The notes beneath the pieces are model-generated. The model saw nothing but the letters and a program-made list of their open reading frames with translations, had not been told where the DNA came from and ran no database searches. The translations under genes and the position numbers were made by a program. Below are positions 16,099 through 46,604 of a stretch of 64,000 bases of DNA, piece by piece. Within the stretch, counting starts at the first letter, position 1; each line of letters opens with the position of its first letter. Source of the stretch: Halodesulfurarchaeum sp. HSR-GB (lineage in GTDB: Archaea; Halobacteriota; Halobacteria; Halobacteriales; Halobacteriaceae); NCBI RefSeq assembly GCF_031432215.1, contig NZ_JAVKGN010000001.1:806001-870000 (forward strand), written 5' to 3'.

Positions 16099-16274
16099 GT
16101 ACCGTCTCAACCCGCCAGTATCGGTGGCTCGATCGCCTCACGAAACTCGGGGGTGTCGCCCTGTTGGCCGGGGCCCTCGAGACGGGAATCGCCACGGCAC
16201 CCGGGTTGGCGCTGGCACTCGCCGGCGTCCTGCTTGGGGGCTGTACCGCCATCTGTACGGAGGCTACTTCATGA
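16095..16274 (+). CDS. 59-residue membrane protein between narC and narG
   Basis: The ATG at 16095 overlaps the narC stop as ATGA and its own TGA (16272-16274) overlaps the narG ATG as ATGA. The peptide has a basic start and one or two hydrophobic stretches (about residues 18-30 and 34-48), ending with [12 protein letters not shown], which contains two cysteines. A small ORF in this position is also found in haloarchaeal nar operons. It may be a small membrane subunit or assembly factor. The strict coupling on both sides supports that it is translated. Confidence 0.7.
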
Positions 16275-19108
16275 AAGACGAACACACCGACGACAGCACG
16301 ACCGGACGACGCGACTTCCTGAAAGGTATCGGCGCGGCCGCCGCCATCGGGGCGACCGGCGTCGGCACGGCACAATCACTCTCGGAGCTAGACGGGTTAC
16401 AGGTCGCCGAGGACCCGATCGGTAACTACCCCTATCGCGAGTGGGAGGACCTCTATCGCGATGAATGGGACTGGGACTCGATCGGTCGTAGCACCCACAG
16501 CATCAACTGCACCGGCAGTTGCTCCTGGGACGTCTACGTGAAGGACGGCCAGGTCTTCCGCGAGGAACAGGCCGGGGACTATCCGCGGATCAGCCAGGAC
16601 GTCCCGGACTCCAACCCCCGGGGCTGTAACAAGGGGGCCTGTTACAAGAACTACGTCCACGGGGCCCAGCGGGTCAAATACCCGCTGAAGCGGACCGGCG
16701 AGCGCGGCGAGGGCAAGTGGAAGCGGATCGACTGGGATACCGCCATCGACGAGATTTCCGAGAAGGTACTCGAGGAGGTCACGACCGGGCACTACGACGG
16801 TATCAGCGGGTTCACACCGATCCCGGCGATGTCCCCGGTCTCGTTTGCTAGTGGCAGCCGACTGCTCAACCTCCTCGGTGGGGTCAGTCACTCCTTCTAT
16901 GACTGGTATGCCGACCTGCCGCCGGGCGAACCAATCACCTGGGGCCACCAGACCGACAACGCCGAGAGCGCTGACTGGTACCACTCGGATTACATCATCG
17001 CCTGGGGCTCGAACATCGACATCACCCGCATCCCCGACGCGAAGTACTACCTGGAGGCCCGCTACGACGGCGCGAAGACCGTGGGAATCTTCACGGACTA
17101 CTCCCAGACGGCGATCCACTCCGACGAGTGGCTCTCCCCGGATGCGGGCACTGACGCCGCGCTGGCCCTGGGGATGGCCCGGACCATCGTCGAAGAGGGA
17201 CTCTACGACGCCGAGCACCTCAAAGAGCAGTCAGACATGCCCCTGCTGGTCCGGGAGGACACCGGGAAGTTCCTCCGGGCTGCGGAGGTCGACGGCGTCT
17301 CGGGCAATGAGAAGGTCATGGTCATGGTCGACGAAACCGGGTCGCTCCGGAAGGCCCCCGCGTCGCTGGGGGACCGGGCGGGGAAGTACGACGCCGACGC
17401 GTCGATCGAACTCGACTTCGATCCACAACTCTCGGTGGACCGGACAGTCAGTACGACCGACGGGACTGTCGAGGTCCGGTCCGTGTGGGAACGACTCCGG
17501 GAAAAACTCGCGGAGTATACGCCTGGGGAGGTTTACGAGACGACCGGCGTTGGCGAGGAGACGGTCCAGCGAGTCGCCAGAGAGTTCGCCGAGGCCGACC
17601 GCGGGAAGATCATCCACGGGAAGGGGGTCAACGACTGGTATCACAACGACCTGGGCAACCGGGCGATTCAGCTTCTGACCACCCTGACCGGGCACATCGG
17701 TCGTCGCGGGACCGGTTTCGACCACTACGTCGGCCAGGAGAAGATCTGGACGTTCAACGGCTGGAAGAACCTCTCGTTCCCGACCGGGAACGTTCGGGGG
17801 ATGCCCACGACGCTGTGGACTTACTACCACGCCGATATCACCGAGGAACAGCCGGAGTTGGCCGAACGCATCGAGGAGTCGGTTTCGAAGGACTGGATGC
17901 CGCTGTATCCCGAAGAGCGGTCCGATGGGACCCGCCCCGACCCAAGCATCTTCTTCGTCTGGCGGGCGAATTACTACAACCAGGCCAAAGGCGGCATGGC
18001 GGTCCGGGAGAACCTCTGGCCGAAACTCGATCTGGTCGTGGACATCAACTACCGGATGGACACGACGGCGATGTTCTCGGATTACGTCTTGCCCTCTTCC
18101 TCGAACTACGAGAAGGACGACCTCTCGATGACGGACATGCACACGTACGTGCATCCGTTCACCAAGGCGATCGAACCACTCGGGGAGTCCAAATCCGACT
18201 GGGAGATCTTTCGCCTGCTCGCCGAGCGCATCCAACAGAAGGCCCGGGAACGCGATCTGGGCCCCATCGATGACCGCTCGTTCGACCGGCAGATCGACCT
18301 CCAGTCGGTTCACGAGGACTACGTTCGGGACTGGTTTACCGGCGAGGAGGGGGCCCTGGAGACTGCCCGGGACGGTGCGGAATTCGTCTTGGAGAACTCC
18401 ACGGAGTCCAATCCGGACGACGGTGGGGAGATTACCTTCGAGGACACGGTCGAGCAGCCCCAGCGCTTCGAGGCGGCTGGTGACCACTGGACCTCGCCCC
18501 TCGAGGAGGATAAGACCTACACGCCCTGGATGGACTTCGTCCAGGACAAGGAGCCCTGGCCGACCTTCACGGGTCGCCAGCAGTACTACATCGACCACGA
18601 CTGGTTCCTTGAACTCGGCGAGGAACTCCCGACTCACAAGGGTGCAGTCGACGAGCAGGACCCGGAGAAATACCCGCTTCGGTTCAACACTCACCACCCC
18701 CGGTGGGGCATCCACTCGACCTGGCGGGACGACAAGTACATGCTTCGGCTCAACCGGGGCGAACCGGTGCTCTACATCCACCCGGACGACGCCGAGCGAC
18801 GGGGGATCGAGGACGGCGACCGGATCACGGCCCGGAACGAGGCCGACGAGATCTCGGCGATCGCGAAGATCTACCCCAGCGCGCAGGAGGGGACGGTCAA
18901 GATGACCCACGGCTGGGAGGACTACCAGTTCGCCGAGGGTGGGAACTTCAACACGGTGGTCACGATGATGCTCAAACCAACCCAACTCGTGCAGTACCCG
19001 GCCGATTCGGGCGAACACCTCCATTTCTTCCCCAACTTCTGGGGCCCGACCGGGGTGAACAGCGACGCGCGTGTCGAGGTCGAGAAACAGGGGGGTGACG
19101 GGCAATGA
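16271..19108 (+). CDS. narG: Respiratory nitrate reductase alpha subunit, outward-facing (pNar type)
   Basis: Molybdenum bis-MGD enzyme that reduces nitrate to nitrite. The 945-residue protein starts with a Tat signal (TGRRDFLKG, RR at 13-14, hydrophobic core to about 35), so it is exported folded. The iron-sulfur ligand set has the NarG form: H76-x3-C80-x3-C84-x34-C119. D229 in HQTDNAESADWY corresponds to the Asp that binds molybdenum in NarG. HSFYDWYADLPPGEP and YHNDLGNRAIQLL agree closely with haloarchaeal NarG as I remember it. This argues against a DMSO or thiosulfate reductase. The start is the ATG at 16271, coupled to the preceding small ORF; a longer frame upstream is chance. Confidence 0.95.
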   Translation: MKDEHTDDSTTGRRDFLKGIGAAAAIGATGVGTAQSLSELDGLQVAEDPIGNYPYREWEDLYRDEWDWDSIGRSTHSINCTGSCSWDVYVKDGQVFREEQAGDYPRISQDVPDSNPRGCNKGACYKNYVHGAQRVKYPLKRTGERGEGKWKRIDWDTAIDEISEKVLEEVTTGHYDGISGFTPIPAMSPVSFASGSRLLNLLGGVSHSFYDWYADLPPGEPITWGHQTDNAESADWYHSDYIIAWGSNIDITRIPDAKYYLEARYDGAKTVGIFTDYSQTAIHSDEWLSPDAGTDAALALGMARTIVEEGLYDAEHLKEQSDMPLLVREDTGKFLRAAEVDGVSGNEKVMVMVDETGSLRKAPASLGDRAGKYDADASIELDFDPQLSVDRTVSTTDGTVEVRSVWERLREKLAEYTPGEVYETTGVGEETVQRVAREFAEADRGKIIHGKGVNDWYHNDLGNRAIQLLTTLTGHIGRRGTGFDHYVGQEKIWTFNGWKNLSFPTGNVRGMPTTLWTYYHADITEEQPELAERIEESVSKDWMPLYPEERSDGTRPDPSIFFVWRANYYNQAKGGMAVRENLWPKLDLVVDINYRMDTTAMFSDYVLPSSSNYEKDDLSMTDMHTYVHPFTKAIEPLGESKSDWEIFRLLAERIQQKARERDLGPIDDRSFDRQIDLQSVHEDYVRDWFTGEEGALETARDGAEFVLENSTESNPDDGGEITFEDTVEQPQRFEAAGDHWTSPLEEDKTYTPWMDFVQDKEPWPTFTGRQQYYIDHDWFLELGEELPTHKGAVDEQDPEKYPLRFNTHHPRWGIHSTWRDDKYMLRLNRGEPVLYIHPDDAERRGIEDGDRITARNEADEISAIAKIYPSAQEGTVKMTHGWEDYQFAEGGNFNTVVTMMLKPTQLVQYPADSGEHLHFFPNFWGPTGVNSDARVEVEKQGGDGQ

Positions 19109-20160
19109 CTGCCCAGGACCTCAGCGTCGACCTCGCGGATGGAATCAACCACCAGGTCGCGATGGTGATGGACCTCAACAAGTGCATCGGCTGTCAGACC
19201 TGCACGATCGGCTGCAAGACGACCTGGACGGAGGGTGACGGCCAGGAGTACATGTACTGGAACAACGTGGAGACCAAACCCGGTCGGGGCTATCCCAGAG
19301 ACTGGGAGCAGCAGGGCGGCGGCTGGGAGTCCCCAGAACGTTCCGCCGTCGAGGACGGGGAGATGCCCAGCAAATCCGATTACGGGGAGGCCTGGGAGTT
19401 CAACTACGAGGAGGCCCTTCACTCCCCGAGCACAGAACAACTCGCCCCGAAAGGTGGTGCGCCCGACTGGGGCCCGAACTGGGACGAGGACCAGGGCTCG
19501 GGCAAGCACCCCAACTCGCAGTACTTCTACATGCCGCGGATCTGCAATCACTGTACGCACCCGACCTGCGTGGAGGCCTGCCCTCGCCAGGCGATCTACA
19601 AGCGTGCCGAGGACGGGATCGTCCTGGTGGACCAGGAGCGGTGTCGGGGTTACCGGTACTGCGTGGAGGGCTGTCCCTACAAGAAGGTCTACTACAACGC
19701 CGCGAAGAAGGCCTCCGAGAAGTGCATCTTCTGCTACCCCCGCCTGGAGGGTGAGGGTCCCGACGGGGAGGTGCACGGCCCGGTGTGTGCCGAGGAGTGC
19801 CCGACCCAGCTCCGGCTGGTCGGCTACCTCGACGACCGACAGGGCCCGATCTACAAGCTGGTCGAACAGTACGAGGTTGCGATCCCGCTCCATCCGGAGT
19901 ATCAGACCTCGCCGAACGTCTTCTACATCCCACCCTTCGACGCCCCGCCACAGATTGACGAGGAAGGTGAGACGACGGACATCGACCGCATCCCGACCGA
20001 ATACCTGGAGGATCTCTTCGGCGACCAGGTCCACGACGCCCTGGAGACACTCAAGCGGGAACGGGCCAAGGTGAACCGTGGCGGGAGCAGCGAGGTGATG
20101 GAGATTCTGACGAGCAACAATCCGGCGCAGAAATACCGTCTGGAGGTGTTCGACGAATGA
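19105..20160 (+). CDS. narH: Nitrate reductase beta subunit, iron-sulfur
   Basis: Carries four iron-sulfur clusters that bring electrons to NarG. The 351-residue protein has four cysteine groups: C27-x2-C30-x2-C33-x3-C37, CNHCTHPTCVEACP, CRGYRYCVEGCP and CIFCYP...CAEECP. The third group has Y where bacterial NarH has W in CRGWRxC, a group that forms the [3Fe-4S] site in that enzyme. There is no signal peptide, so it is probably co-exported with NarG through the Tat system. The ATG overlaps narG (ATGA). The last residues LEVFDE and the stop are copied again at 20312-20330 by the repeat that follows. Confidence 0.95.
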   Translation: MTAQDLSVDLADGINHQVAMVMDLNKCIGCQTCTIGCKTTWTEGDGQEYMYWNNVETKPGRGYPRDWEQQGGGWESPERSAVEDGEMPSKSDYGEAWEFNYEEALHSPSTEQLAPKGGAPDWGPNWDEDQGSGKHPNSQYFYMPRICNHCTHPTCVEACPRQAIYKRAEDGIVLVDQERCRGYRYCVEGCPYKKVYYNAAKKASEKCIFCYPRLEGEGPDGEVHGPVCAEECPTQLRLVGYLDDRQGPIYKLVEQYEVAIPLHPEYQTSPNVFYIPPFDAPPQIDEEGETTDIDRIPTEYLEDLFGDQVHDALETLKRERAKVNRGGSSEVMEILTSNNPAQKYRLEVFDE

Positions 20161-20326
20161 CGACTGGAATTCGTCGAGCTCGCCAGGGCGGTTACCTGGA
20201 GATTGTTCGACGAATGACGACTGGAATTCGTCGAGCTCGCCAGGGCGGTTACCTGGAGATTGTTCGACGAATGACGACTGGAATTCGTCGAGCTCGCCAG
20301 GGCGGTTACCTGGAGGTGTTCGACGA
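20157..20326 (+). repeat. 57-bp direct tandem repeat, three copies (57, 57 and 56 bp)
   Basis: Units begin at 20157, 20214 and 20271. The first two are identical; the third differs only near its end, GAGGTGTTCG in place of GAGATTGTTCG. Each unit holds an inverted repeat, ATTCGTCGA (20169-20177 in unit 1) against TCGACGAAT (20207-20215), with an inner CCAGG/CCTGG pair (20183-20187 and 20195-20199). Each unit could therefore fold into a hairpin in RNA or a cruciform in DNA. Near-identity suggests recent duplication. Confidence 0.95.
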
Positions 20327-20330
20327 ATGA
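20157..20330 (+). CDS. 57-residue ORF made of three 19-residue tandem repeats
   Basis: The ATG at 20157 overlaps the narH stop (ATGA). Its reading frame crosses three tandem units and stops at 20328-20330, overlapping the next gene's ATG at 20327 (ATGA again). Units 1 and 2 each encode MTTGIRRARQGGYLEIVRR; unit 3 is one base shorter near its end and finishes with GGYLEVFDE, the same six final residues as NarH. The peptide is basic (many Arg), unlike most haloarchaeal proteins. It may be a real microprotein, or a repeat expansion kept in frame because it must maintain translational coupling. I know no homologue. Confidence 0.5.
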   Translation: MTTGIRRARQGGYLEIVRRMTTGIRRARQGGYLEIVRRMTTGIRRARQGGYLEVFDE

Positions 20331-21148
20331 CGGCCGCTCGACAGTCGACTCTGGTGGTCGCAATCGCGACGCTGGTCGTCGCCTCGGCGCTCTTCGTTCC
20401 GGCCATCGCAGCCGGCGTGCCGGCCAATCAGGTCCCGGTCAGCTCACAACCCGATGCCGGTGACTCGCTGTCCCAGCCGACCGGCGACGCGTGGGCTGAC
20501 GTGGAGTCGGCCCAGGTCCCCCTGACAAGTGCGCCGTCCGGCCTGCCGGACGCATCGATCGTCCAGACCGACTCGGTGACGGTCCAATCGGCCCACACCG
20601 ACGACCGGATCTACGTCCGGCTCCAGTGGGACGACCAGACGGAAAACGCCTCCGAGGCGGCGCTTGATGCCTACGCCGACGGGGCCGCCGTCCAGTTACC
20701 GGCCAACGTCTCGACCACCCCGAGTGTCGAACTCGGGAGCCAGGACCAGCCGGTCAACCTCTGGTACTGGACGGCGGCTGACGGCGCCGAAGAGGCCCTG
20801 GCCGGCGGCTACAACCCCGGCAGCATCACGGCGCTGGAGGAGACGACCGTCCAGACCCACGCGACACACGACGGGGACACCTGGACGGTGGTGTTCGAGC
20901 GCTCGCTCGAAACTGACGCCCCCGCACGGGCCGACTTCGACCTGGAAACCGACGTCGACATCGCCTTTGCCGTCTGGGACGGCGCGAACGACGAGCGCTC
21001 CGGGCACCACGCCTACAGCGAGTGGTACACCCTCCCGCTCGGGCCCGGGGATACCGGCCCCGCTGCACAGTACCTGCTCTGGGCTGTCGCGGGTATCGGC
21101 ATCGTGATCGCGCTGCTTATCGCCGCCCGGGCACGGGGCGGGGACTGA
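20327..21148 (+). CDS. Heme-b type subunit, ethylbenzene-dehydrogenase gamma-like
   Basis: A 273-residue exported protein: signal peptide at residues 8-30 (ALFVPAIAAG), a beta-rich domain (about 45-235) of the EB_dh family that binds a b-type heme in ethylbenzene dehydrogenase, selenate reductase and similar molybdoenzymes, and a C-terminal membrane helix (about 247-268) followed by basic residues. VRLQWDDQTEN and the late DIAFAVWDGANDERSGHHAY segment are typical of the fold. Haloarchaeal nar operons have a comparable gene after narH, so it probably relays electrons between cytochrome b or Rieske protein and NarH on the outer face. Its start codon overlaps the repeat ORF's stop. Confidence 0.82.
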   Translation: MTAARQSTLVVAIATLVVASALFVPAIAAGVPANQVPVSSQPDAGDSLSQPTGDAWADVESAQVPLTSAPSGLPDASIVQTDSVTVQSAHTDDRIYVRLQWDDQTENASEAALDAYADGAAVQLPANVSTTPSVELGSQDQPVNLWYWTAADGAEEALAGGYNPGSITALEETTVQTHATHDGDTWTVVFERSLETDAPARADFDLETDVDIAFAVWDGANDERSGHHAYSEWYTLPLGPGDTGPAAQYLLWAVAGIGIVIALLIAARARGGD

Positions 21149-21151
21149 TCA

Positions 21152-21787
21152 ATGACTACGACCCAGCAATCGACGCCATCCGTGACCGACGCCGCCGAAG
21201 CTGCCCGAGGGACCGTCTATGGAACCCTCGCGAGGCTGTACGAGGAACCTGACGAAAAACTGTACGAGGTGCTCGCGGACGGGACCCTCTTCGAAGAGCT
21301 CGGGCGACTTATCGAGGAGTCGGCGCTTGCCGTCTCGGTGCCGACGGTCCGGACCGACGAGGACTACGAACTGCTCTGTGCCCGGTTCAACGACGTGTTT
21401 GTCGTGGGCTATCCCGATCCGCCGGTGCCACGCTACGAGTCGGAATACGTCGATCGGGGGTGGAACGACACGAACCTCGATCTCGCCCGCGCCTACGAGT
21501 ACTTTGATTTGGAAGTCGACGAACGCACGCGGGACCACCACGATTATCTCCCCTACGAACTGGAGTTCGTCGGCTATCTGGCTCGACTCGCGGCCACCGG
21601 CGAGGACGGGGCCACGCGTGCCCGGGCCGATTTCCTGGACCGCCACCTCGAACCGTTCGTCGCTGGTCTGGAGGCCGCGATCGACGAGGAGGTCGGGACC
21701 GGGATCTACGACCCGATCGTCTCGTTCACCGCGGCGTTTGTTCGCGCCGATCTGGCGGCCCTCGACGACGAGGTGACCGTGGAATGA
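21152..21787 (+). CDS. narJ: NarJ/TorD-family molybdoenzyme chaperone
   Basis: A 211-residue cytoplasmic, all-helical protein of the TorD/DmsD/NarJ superfamily. Such chaperones hold the apo-alpha subunit and its Tat signal until the molybdenum cofactor is in place. Typical features are the start AAEAARGTVYGTLARLYEEP, the middle ELLCARFNDVFV...PPVPRYES region, and DYLPYELEFVGYLARL followed by a C-terminal FLDRHLEPFVAGL helix. It lies 3 bases after the heme-b gene, and its end overlaps the next gene (ATGA). The substrate is very probably NarG of the same operon. Confidence 0.9.
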   Translation: MTTTQQSTPSVTDAAEAARGTVYGTLARLYEEPDEKLYEVLADGTLFEELGRLIEESALAVSVPTVRTDEDYELLCARFNDVFVVGYPDPPVPRYESEYVDRGWNDTNLDLARAYEYFDLEVDERTRDHHDYLPYELEFVGYLARLAATGEDGATRARADFLDRHLEPFVAGLEAAIDEEVGTGIYDPIVSFTAAFVRADLAALDDEVTVE

Positions 21788-38280: not shown

Positions 38281-38634
38281 CTCCGTCCATTTCATCTCGC
38301 TTTGCTCGAAGAAATGGGCCCTAGCGGATTTGAACCAGCGGAAACCTCACTCCGTTCGGTTTCCTGGGTTGCAAATCCGCTGGCCCTCTCCGCGTTGTCA
38401 CGTCTCGTGACACCTTCGGGTCACTCGACGGTGACGGTCCCGAGAAATGGGCCCTAGCGGATTTGAACCTCGGTCACTTCGCTTCGCTCGTTCCCTGATT
38501 CAAATCCGTCGCCCATTTCATCTCGCTCCGCTCGAAGAAATGGGCCCTAGCGGATTTGAACCTCGGTCACTTCGCTTCGCTCGTTCCCTGATTCAAATCC
38601 GCTGGCCATTTCATCTCGCTTTGTTCGAAGAAAT
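38281..38634. repeat. Array of tRNA-3'-end-derived repeats next to tRNA(CAU)
   Basis: The string GGGCCCTAGCGGATTTGAACC, the minus-strand 3' end of the neighbouring tRNA gene, recurs at 38316, 38449 and 38542, in addition to the tRNA itself at 38635. Two full 93-bp units (38449-38541 and 38542-38634) differ at only a few positions. Each unit also contains a 10-base inverted repeat, CGGATTTGAA against TTCAAATCCG. The left member (38316) is diverged and has GGAAACC/GGTTTCC arms. No integrase gene is near. The stretch has no protein gene; the in-frame peptides seen here only reflect the repeats. Confidence 0.85.
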
Positions 38635-38708
38635 GGGCCCTAGCGGATTTGAACCACTGACGACGCGGTTATGAGCCGCGCGCTCTAACCAGACTGAGCT
38701 AAGGGCCC
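38634..38708 (-). tRNA. tRNA with CAU anticodon (Ile2 or Met)
   Basis: A full cloverleaf on the minus strand: acceptor GGGCCCT/AGGGCCC with A73, D-arm GCTCAGTCTGGTTAGAGC, anticodon stem CGCGG/CCGCG with loop CTCATAA (anticodon CAU), T-arm AGTGG-TTCAAAT-CCGCT. There is no encoded CCA. The acceptor stem and A73 resemble tRNA-Ile2 (whose C34 is changed to agmatidine) more than an elongator Met; the initiator is excluded by the acceptor. Its 3' end is the source of the repeat array beside it. It probably shares a transcript with tRNA-Asn 47 bases upstream. Confidence 0.9.
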
Positions 38709-44278: not shown

Positions 44279-44351
44279 GTCCTGGTAGGGTAGTGGACCA
44301 TCCTCCTGGCTTGCGGAGCCAGGGACCGGAGTTCAAATCTCCGTCAGGACG
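44279..44351 (+). tRNA. tRNA-Arg (GCG)
   Basis: Cloverleaf with acceptor GTCCTGG/TCAGGAC (one G-U pair), discriminator G73, D-arm around GGGTAGTGGACCATCC, anticodon stem CTGGC/GCCAG with loop TTGCGGA (anticodon GCG, reads CGC/CGU) and T-arm CGGAG-TTCAAAT-CTCCG. No encoded CCA. Its last 13 bases are repeated at 44423-44435, and a low-GC island follows, so the gene looks like an integration site. Confidence 0.93.
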
Positions 44352-44435
44352 CTCACTTCACTCACTGCGTTCGTTTCGTTCGCGACCTGACTTGCCCCAC
44401 GCTCGCGTCCGCTCGCGTGGGACTCCGTCAGGACG
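44339..44435. repeat. Direct repeat of the tRNA-Arg 3' end, att-like
   Basis: CTCCGTCAGGACG occurs at the end of the tRNA (44339-44351) and again at 44423-44435. Between them lies a perfect 7-base inverted repeat, CCCACGC and GCGTGGG, and GTTCG/GTTTCGTTCG simple repeats. This is what a tRNA integration event leaves behind. From 44436 to 44687 the DNA is AT-richer and contains no gene I can support; it includes the probable promoter of the pentapeptide-channel gene. Confidence 0.65.
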
Positions 44436-44687: not shown

Positions 44688-46604
44688 ATGTCAGACGGTG
44701 ACGGAACCTGCGAGTACGTCCTTGACCCGGAAGACCCCGAAACGTGGGGCGGGTTGCATAGGGAGGAGTGCGACGTTGGCGAGGAAATTCTGAACGAAGA
44801 TGGTGTTTGGACTTGTCCACACGAAGCTGAACCGGGCAAAAACCGCTGTCTTTTTCATCAACCTCTCGTTGAGAAAGATGATGAAAATGTCGTTGATGCG
44901 TTCCTGGATGTAGTCGGCGAAGCTAACGCCAGTGACTGTGCTGAAAGGCGACAGCTGGAGTTTGTCGGTGCGAAGTTCGGTGCGTTTGACCTGAGTGAGA
45001 ACCCCGTGGATCTCACAGCTGGAGACGGCTGGCTTGTGATGGACTACGCCACTGTTGCAGGTGTATTTGACTGGTCTGAGACGATACTTGAGCTGCAGAA
45101 AATAACTTTCAACGGAATAAATTTTGGTGCCGATACCCGTTTCCAAGGCACGGAGTTCGGGGGAGTGGCCAGTTTCAAGGGCGCAGAGTTCAGGGGTGTG
45201 GCCAACTTCAGCGGTGCAGAGTTCGAACGAATCGCCGAGTTCGAGGCAGTGGAGTTCAGGGAAGAGGCAGACCTCAGGACAACAGAGTTCAAGGGACAGG
45301 CCGCCTTCGGGGGTGCGGAGTTCGGGGGGCGAGCCATCTTCAAGGCAGTAACGTTCGAGGGACTGGCTGACTTCCGGAAAACAACGTTCGAGGGATTGGC
45401 CAATTTCAACGCAGTACAGGCAGGAGATTGGGCATTCATGGGGGCAGAGTTCGAAAGACAGGCCAAGTTCGGGAATGCAGAGTTTGGCGGACGGACCAAC
45501 TTCATGTTAGCAGAGTTCGGAAAACGTGCCAATTTCATGTTAGCAGAGTTCGGGGAACTGGCCGACTTCGAGAGTGCAGAGTTTGGGGGAGCGGCTGACT
45601 TCAATGAGGCAGAGTTTGGAGGCGGGGCCGATTTTGAAGGAGTAGAGTTCGAGGAAGAAGTCGGATTCAAGGGGGCAGAGTTCTGGGGCGAAGCTGACTT
45701 CAGGGGCTCATCGTTCGAGGGCAATGCTCCTGTGTTTAGAGGCGTAGCGTTTGAGGAGGGCTCTATTTTCGCAGACCTAACTCTCGACGGGACTCAATTC
45801 AATGGCGGGGACCTGACGGATGCGACTTTTACTGGCACAAGTCTTCGCAATACGAATTTCGAGTCAGCCCTGCTAAGCCGAGCAACATTCTTTGATGCAG
45901 ACCTCCGAGGAGCAAAACTCAGTGGGGCAGTCCTTGGTGATGTTCGCATCGACGACAGGACGCGATTCCTCGGATCTCCCTCTGAAGACGTCGACACCTC
46001 ACCACATACCTTCGCGGCTATCCGCTCACGACCAGCCTGTGTCTATGACCCTTCCTACGAGGGTGATGGTGAACAGGAAGACGCGGACAAAGCAAAAAGC
46101 GTCTATCGAGCGCTGGAGGAACTCGGCGGAAAACACGCCCGCCCTCGCTTACAGAGTCGCTCGTTCGTTCGACGTCAGGACCTCCAGAAGAAGAACTACT
46201 GGGATGATGCGACAGCTAACGAGGCCTCACTCGAAGAACGACTTATAGCGGGCGCTCGGTGGAGTCGAGCGAAGGTGGCACGAGCGACTCTCCTCTACGG
46301 TGAGAGCCCGTGGCGAGTTATCGGATACAGTCTCAGTTTCATTCTCGGATTTGCGATGCTGTTCCCACTCGGTGGATGGATGAAACCCGAAGGCGGGGAC
46401 CCCATTACCTACGCGCAGATCATGTCCAACCCCGCCGAAATCCTCAACTCTGTCTACTACTCCACCCTGACGTTCACGGCGCTCGGATTCGGCGATTTCA
46501 AACCCGTTGGATTCGGACGAGCCTTGACCACTATCGAGACGGGACTTGGAGCCGTGTTGCTTGCCCTTTTCGTATTCATTCTCGGTCGAAGGGCGGCTCG
46601 ATAA
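44688..46604 (+). CDS. Pentapeptide-repeat protein fused to a two-helix potassium-channel pore
   Basis: A 638-residue protein in a lower-GC setting. Residues 1-65 form a Cys/His-rich region (C8, then EECDVG, WTCPHEAEPGKNRCLFH) that may bind zinc. Residues about 140-390 are a beta-helix of pentapeptide type with a regular 11-residue period (for example NFSGAEFERIA, DFESAEFGGAA, DFRGSSFEGNA), about 17 turns. A basic, helical linker (about 430-530) leads to two membrane helices (about 542-563 and 608-632) flanking the pore loop with TALGFGDF (about 597-604), a K+-filter-like sequence. I choose the ATG at 44688 (MSDGDGTCEY); the frame opens upstream at 44580. Function unknown. Confidence 0.82.
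   Translation: MSDGDGTCEYVLDPEDPETWGGLHREECDVGEEILNEDGVWTCPHEAEPGKNRCLFHQPLVEKDDENVVDAFLDVVGEANASDCAERRQLEFVGAKFGAFDLSENPVDLTAGDGWLVMDYATVAGVFDWSETILELQKITFNGINFGADTRFQGTEFGGVASFKGAEFRGVANFSGAEFERIAEFEAVEFREEADLRTTEFKGQAAFGGAEFGGRAIFKAVTFEGLADFRKTTFEGLANFNAVQAGDWAFMGAEFERQAKFGNAEFGGRTNFMLAEFGKRANFMLAEFGELADFESAEFGGAADFNEAEFGGGADFEGVEFEEEVGFKGAEFWGEADFRGSSFEGNAPVFRGVAFEEGSIFADLTLDGTQFNGGDLTDATFTGTSLRNTNFESALLSRATFFDADLRGAKLSGAVLGDVRIDDRTRFLGSPSEDVDTSPHTFAAIRSRPACVYDPSYEGDGEQEDADKAKSVYRALEELGGKHARPRLQSRSFVRRQDLQKKNYWDDATANEASLEERLIAGARWSRAKVARATLLYGESPWRVIGYSLSFILGFAMLFPLGGWMKPEGGDPITYAQIMSNPAEILNSVYYSTLTFTALGFGDFKPVGFGRALTTIETGLGAVLLALFVFILGRRAAR

Follow-up and report, generated by a model that had tools for sequence, protein, structure and literature searches.

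A short open reading frame (ORF) built from three tandem repeat units lies between narH and orf7 in the window, which is the whole 64-kb stretch of DNA that was analysed and which contains a nar operon consisting of narG, narH, orf7, the gene for a narJ-like chaperone and more genes. This locus raises the question of whether the ORF encodes a protein, carries ribosomes from one gene to the next, or is a by-product of the repeat from which it is built. The best explanation, drawn from comparison of sequences, is that a palindromic array of gene-end copies is probably kept at the narH-orf7 junction as a disposable translated bridge.

Architecture of the narH-orf7 junction

Table 1. Positions of the nar genes, the repeat array, its hairpins and related arrays, in the numbering of the window unless a locus is named
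Feature	Position	Strand	Basis
narG	16124-19108		Pfam Molybdopterin/Molydop_binding
narH, beta subunit, 4Fe-4S; upstream coupled gene	19105..20160	+	Pfam Fer4_11 1.5e-28 (Fer4 dicluster)
First X copy, CTGGAGGTGTTCGACGAATGACG, equal to the narH 3' end, with narH stop and ATGA start	20140..20162	+	sequence, TRF
Bridge (relay) ORF, 57 aa and stop, sharing ATGA with narH at one end and with orf7 at the other	20157..20330	+	
Unit 1, 57 bp	20157..20213	+	sequence, TRF
Unit 2, 57 bp	20214..20270	+	sequence, TRF
Unit 3, 56 bp; 1 bp shorter, sets the stop at the orf7 start	20271..20326	+	
Hairpin 1 (X'-inner stem-X)	20168..20216	+	covariance model match, E 1.9e-7
Hairpin 2	20225..20273	+	covariance model match, E 1.9e-7
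Hairpin 3, encloses GGAGGTG (20312-20318) and the orf7 start codon	20282..20329	+	covariance model E 1.9e-11 (its own sequence was part of the model); fold
orf7, heme-b (ethylbenzene-dehydrogenase-like) subunit; downstream coupled gene	20327..21148	+	Pfam EB_dh 4.3e-34
narJ-like chaperone	21152-21787		Pfam Nitrate_red_del
Second array with this architecture, downstream of tRNA-Met, arranged as X (tRNA 3' end)-tip-X'-tip-X	38323..38653	-	
Enolase-superfamily arrays	L247, L248, L249, L270, L272, L275, L277, L278, L285, L287, L288, L254, L257		

The ATG of the bridge ORF (20157) overlaps the TGA of narH (20158-20160), and its TGA (20328-20330) overlaps the ATG of orf7 (20327), in both cases as ATGA (4 nt). 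The amino acid sequence deduced from this ORF consists of two copies of MTTGIRRARQGGYLEIVRR followed by MTTGIRRARQGGYLEVFDE and the stop. Tandem Repeats Finder (TRF) reports a repeat at 20140-20332 with a period of 57, 3.4 copies and 97% matches, and units 1 and 2 are identical to each other. The preliminary description of this locus, in which an ORF of three tandem units with ATGA overlaps at both ends was reported, is thereby confirmed in the sequence. Its further proposal that a 57-bp unit keeps the frame at any copy number is correct for the inner copies only, because the last unit is 56 bp. The shorter last unit shifts the end of the array into the C-terminal frame of narH itself (LEVFDE and stop), so that the stop of the bridge ORF falls exactly on the orf7 start.

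The final ~20 nt of narH are CTGGAGGTGTTCGACGAATGA, which is the source of arm X and of the Shine-Dalgarno-like site GGAGGTG. X comprises the narH end and the start codon, and X and X', as direct and inverted copies of the final ~12-20 nt of narH, form the outer arms of the unit. Each unit is laid out as X' (AATTCGTCGAGCTC), an inner stem CCAGG/CCTGG and then X (GTTCGACGAATG), and contains the inverted repeat AATTCGTCGAGCTC-CCAGG...CCTGG-AG-TGTTCGACGAATG, which had previously been missed. In effect, the insert is the stretch bounded by the first and the last copy of CTGGAGGTGTTCGACGAATGACG, without which narH and orf7 would be joined by an ordinary ATGA overlap, as they are in many relatives. 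The unit is unique in its own genome, in which its sequence gives nothing above chance elsewhere. A DNA match in G281 is a chance coding match inside a helicase-like gene.

Compared with dinucleotide shuffles, the array folds with z = -5.3 as RNA and z = -4.1 as DNA. Exact X-X'-X triplets with 9-nt arms are found at two places in the 64 kb, the narH array and the region downstream of tRNA-Met, and at 0-1 places in Markov controls. The T run expected of an intrinsic terminator is absent from the sequence after all three units.

Spread, folding and reading frame of the arrays in haloarchaea

The narH-orf7 junctions of haloarchaea were surveyed with one genome per species, the orf7 start being set by homology and by the X-like upstream motif. 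Arrays are present at 34 of 78 distinct junctions, and the rest show a direct overlap or a short extension. The arrays span six families (f1, f4, f5, f6, f7 and f17), and the number of units at the junction ranges from 0 to 6 or more. G003, which belongs to another genus and whose narH is 81% identical, carries three diverged, non-identical units at the same junction. Filled and empty junctions occur inside one genus (e.g. g25, g40, g49, g52 and g73), and the empty ones are seamless. These seamless junctions fit a loss by recombination between X copies, like the repeat-mediated deletion between direct repeats in Haloquadratum (Dyall-Smith et al. 2011, PMC3119063).

The hairpins of these arrays show the compensatory base changes in stems that are typical of structured RNA. 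When 20 units drawn from many genomes are aligned, 90.5% of the cells are paired, and 48 cells carry double-sided changes, as compared with 13.2 +/- 3.0 in shuffled alignments and 4-12 in slid controls. The covariation score is 0.407, as compared with 0.176 for shuffled alignments and at most 0.115 for slid controls, and RNAalifold recovers the same helix. The inner stem varies between genomes with strong compensatory change. The X' arm fits the narH end of its own species best, with a sum of 248 versus 205.8 +/- 6.5 (maximum 228) when the pairs are permuted. The alignment contains two conserved G.U wobble pairs (columns 12-43 and 14-40), which suggest either a role of the pairing at the RNA level or other causes that keep both sides constant. 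In several arrays (e.g. L144, L156 and L171), the last hairpin folds unlike the consensus.

Among the narH arrays of the 34 genomes, triloops of the GNA/TNC type are found in 14 of 25 perfect hairpins, versus a background of 15%. The triloops of narH arrays are mostly C-GNA-G on one strand, a motif typical of DNA mini-hairpins of high stability. The CGARCGNAGYGAG motif is much denser in arrays (18 in 5.8 kb) than in the sampled genome (12 in 864 kb). Very stable DNA mini-hairpins are formed by d(GCGNAGC) sequences, and this hints at an origin of the arrays at the DNA level.

A bridging ORF, defined as one that starts within 11 nt of the narH stop and either ends over the orf7 start or runs in frame into orf7, is found as a single ORF in 33 of the 34 arrays, while 14.8 are expected from a model in which the linkers are shuffled and the X copies are held fixed. 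An unbroken chain of overlapping ORFs is present in all 34 arrays (19.2 expected), and in G003, the exception, this chain is made of two ORFs instead of one. The longest bridge, that of G174, spans six units and has a shuffle probability of 0.01. When arrays sharing 9-mers are collapsed into 14 clusters, a bridge is found in 13 of them, versus 3.9 by mono shuffle (P 1.7e-9) or 5.2 by a Markov model (P 1.7e-6), these P values being approximate even by cluster because of shared ancestry and short consensus tips among the arrays. When the arrays are shifted by 1-2 nt, the bridging property is left in 7 of 28.

In the arrays with a bridge, none of the 1183 codons of the bridging frame outside the X copies is a stop codon, as compared with 22 of 1202 and 33 of 1191 in the other two frames (1.8-2.8%). 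As controls, arrays of the same class at uncoupled gene ends were used. The frequency of stops per codon is 3.0% in arrays at tRNA 3' ends and 2.7% in arrays at the ends of enolase-superfamily genes (13) and of an AspRS-like gene (1), and only 7 of these 14 gene-end arrays have any open frame. Stops are thus present in arrays at uncoupled gene ends and absent from the bridging frame, indicating that openness is special to the coupled narH-orf7 junction.

Pairs of genes coupled by termination-reinitiation have been described for Haloferax volcanii, in which coupling is strict for 13 of 14 overlapping pairs tested (Huber et al. 2019, PMC6728339) and reinitiation is lost when the gap is 22-23 nt long (Huber et al. 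2023, PMC10666635). Because gaps of ~22 nt abolish reinitiation in Haloferax, an insertion at narH-orf7 apparently must be translated across. Like the pairs treated in these two sources, narH and orf7 encode subunits of one complex with a Shine-Dalgarno-like site ahead of the downstream start, and the ATGA or other short overlaps of those pairs recur here at both ends of the bridge. The overlaps of a few nucleotides between stop and start lie at 20157-20160 and 20327-20330, and 33 of 34 arrays bridge likewise. Unlike in the H. volcanii pairs, a non-conserved, repeat-built ORF is interposed, which would relay the coupling. The notion of an expandable translational relay in the preliminary description gains support by comparison, from the bridging arrays and clusters, the stop-free frame and the free copy number.

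Related arrays at tRNA and other gene ends

The second array in the window contains direct and inverted copies of the tRNA-Met 3' end set apart by CGAGCGAAGCGA-type tips. In the sampled stretches, X-tip-X'-tip-X arrays follow tRNA-Glu, -Gly, -Ile, -Asp and -Met in G000 and tRNA-Ser, -Thr and -Lys in G194, and the remaining tRNAs have no copies or only partial ones. Similar direct-plus-inverted copies of tRNA 3' ends lie behind many tRNA genes of haloarchaea, at L184, L188, L197 and L201 (G000), at L214, L221 and L223 (G194), at L224 (G174) and at L104:10598-10786 (G003). Downstream of tRNA-Arg (window 44279-44420), a short direct 3'-end copy is accompanied by a CGAACGCAGTGAG tip and is possibly a decayed array. 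At 45139-45619 of the window lie 33-bp (11-codon) tandem repeats rich in GCAGAGTTCGG, which perhaps encode a pentapeptide-repeat protein. A scan of other coding junctions for X-X'-X, which covered 464 kb in G000 and 400 kb in each of G194 and G174, detects such arrays at tRNA 3' ends only, plus scattered chance coding matches.

The covariance model of the narH hairpin matches only the narH array in G000. In other haloarchaea, its further matches are arrays that follow an enolase-superfamily gene at its 3' end, together with one case each at an AspRS-like and an RNB-domain gene; the many matches with E above about 1e-4, some of which are plain coding sequence, are not counted among the arrays. 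The enolase-superfamily gene (Pfam MR_MLE_C), whose protein ends in ...GE(T/E)LFDEA and stop, carries these arrays, which contain as many as six GTTCGA-like copies, in many haloarchaea. At L283 (G072) and L284 (G082), the AspRS-like gene is followed at its 3' end by array-like copies (84-bp repeat) and the RNB-domain gene has a single hairpin at its end. What the arrays of the class share is an inverted gene-end copy, an inner stem that varies and, within X, a GTTC/GTTCRA motif. The open-access literature on GAGCGAAGCGAG, narH inverted repeats, haloarchaeal partial tRNAs or palindromic intergenic repeats yielded no account of such arrays, and the narH array is provisionally assigned to an undescribed haloarchaeal class of palindromic arrays at gene 3' ends.

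Several known palindromic elements resemble these arrays. Rickettsia palindromic elements (RPE) sit inside proteins and survive within coding regions because they preserve the frame; the narH array is likewise palindromic and in frame, but its place is the junction of two overlapping genes and its arms derive from the target. REP/BIME elements are palindromic units at gene ends, and tandem inversion duplications have the layout of head-to-head inverted triplications. Gene-end palindromes and the X-X'-X layout are shared with the narH array, but its recurring tips (GCGNAGC) and conserved flanks are not expected from chance inversions. Integron attC sites are imperfect palindromes in tandem that can fold as single strands, and their likeness to the narH array is a resemblance only. 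The SMR-A/B, PATE and MITE elements of Haloquadratum walsbyi (PMC3119063) are, like the units described here, short haloarchaeal palindromic elements without a transposase. Their sequence, which has terminal or near-terminal inverted repeats, is fixed whatever the target, whereas here the copies are in tandem and the arms follow the end of the particular host gene, such that tRNA arrays carry tRNA arms, and the unit has no dispersed copies in its genome.

A probable translated bridge and its alternatives

Each unit joins a direct (X) and an inverted (X') copy of the last bases of the preceding gene to a fast-changing inner stem-loop. At narH, X carries the narH stop, GGAGGTG and the overlapping orf7 start codon, and because it contains both the stop and the start signals, gain or loss of a unit leaves narH and orf7 intact. 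In the probable case of a translated bridge, an inserted sequence would uncouple orf7 from narH, so that selection would keep only those arrays that are open from the narH stop and in a frame ending at the orf7 start. Ribosomes would translate the bridge ORF and be passed onward by termination-reinitiation, and coupling would be the selected property; the peptide itself has no conserved sequence. The absence of the array from many genomes argues against its necessity and indicates that it is not needed. The arrays may have arisen from a mobile palindrome or through copying of a folded-back gene end; local fold-back copying (template switching) would explain the target-derived arms, and a common element is suggested by the tips and flanks that recur among the arrays.

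The foremost alternative, which is compatible with a translated bridge and which we regard as possible, though short of probable, is that the array acts as a regulatory RNA, in which the last hairpin hides both the Shine-Dalgarno site and the start of orf7 until a ribosome crossing the bridge melts it, and the copy number tunes the NarH:Orf7 ratio. The hairpin over the orf7 start may in this way make initiation depend on translation of the relay. The consensus hairpin encloses GGAGGTG and AUG, and the covariation of the inner stem, the conserved G.U pairs and the RNA fold (z -5.3) fit pairing in RNA. However, hairpins of the same class without a start codon occur at tRNA and enolase-like gene ends, quasi-palindrome correction in DNA could also yield the covariation, and in many genomes there is no hairpin at the junction.

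It is unlikely that the array is a neutral or selfish palindromic repeat without a role, its open frame being a by-product of GC-rich, stop-poor units. The same architecture is present at untranslated sites, namely the 3' ends of tRNA genes and the ends of other genes, and arrays appear and vanish inside genera, but the counts by cluster strain this reading, and such a repeat would hardly account for a bridging frame free of stops when the other frames and the uncoupled arrays contain 2-3%, or for an end phase that fits the orf7 start in 33 of 34 arrays. The arrays may well have a selfish origin, from which the open frame is hard to derive.

An element for processing, termination or stability of the transcript between narH and orf7 is still less likely. 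Strong hairpins do lie between the cistrons and likewise at tRNA 3' ends, but the stem is not followed by a U-run, many operons lack the array, and an open, phase-matched ORF is not predicted from such an element.

That the ORF is a genuine gene for a basic, repeat-built microprotein of 57 aa is very improbable. The overlaps at its start and stop and the conserved openness are in its favor, but the peptides of the 34 arrays (MTTGIRRARQ..., MRNEVSIRGLERR..., MSEHRERTSSSED...) are unrelated between species except for close relatives, so that the amino acid sequence conservation expected of a microprotein is not found. The only Pfam match of the ORF, to Ribosomal_S18 over 16 residues, is below the threshold (20.8 bits versus a cut-off of 21). 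What had been observed at this locus stands, its reading as a relay is well supported by comparison, and the idea of a new microprotein is not supported; the covarying hairpin with its inverted gene-end copy and the arrays at tRNA and other gene ends had escaped notice. Inflation or collapse of the repeat during assembly is the least credible alternative, because, although units 1 and 2 are identical and the copy number is read from the assembly alone, 33 other genomes have related but diverged arrays at this junction, among them G003 with its three non-identical units.

More broadly, the evidence leaves evenly balanced the proposal that an undescribed class of haloarchaeal DNA elements copies the 3' end of a host gene in direct and inverted orientation and thereby forms tandem hairpin arrays, both at tRNA genes and at certain protein genes, and that at overlapping gene pairs selection forces these arrays into translated relay ORFs, of which the sole conserved property is an open, phase-matched frame. 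The narH-orf7 junction offers a natural experiment on translational coupling, in which 34 arrays (14 clusters) at one overlapping pair are nearly all open and in phase with arbitrary peptides, and in which arrays of this class that stand at uncoupled genes and are not kept open provide a built-in contrast. The arrays point to an unexplained process in haloarchaea that duplicates and inverts gene ends, among them those of tRNA genes, narH and an enolase-superfamily gene. They also warn against reading a functional peptide into every open frame between genes that evolution has conserved, and if the proposal is true, relay ORFs would be coding sequences that serve no function as protein.
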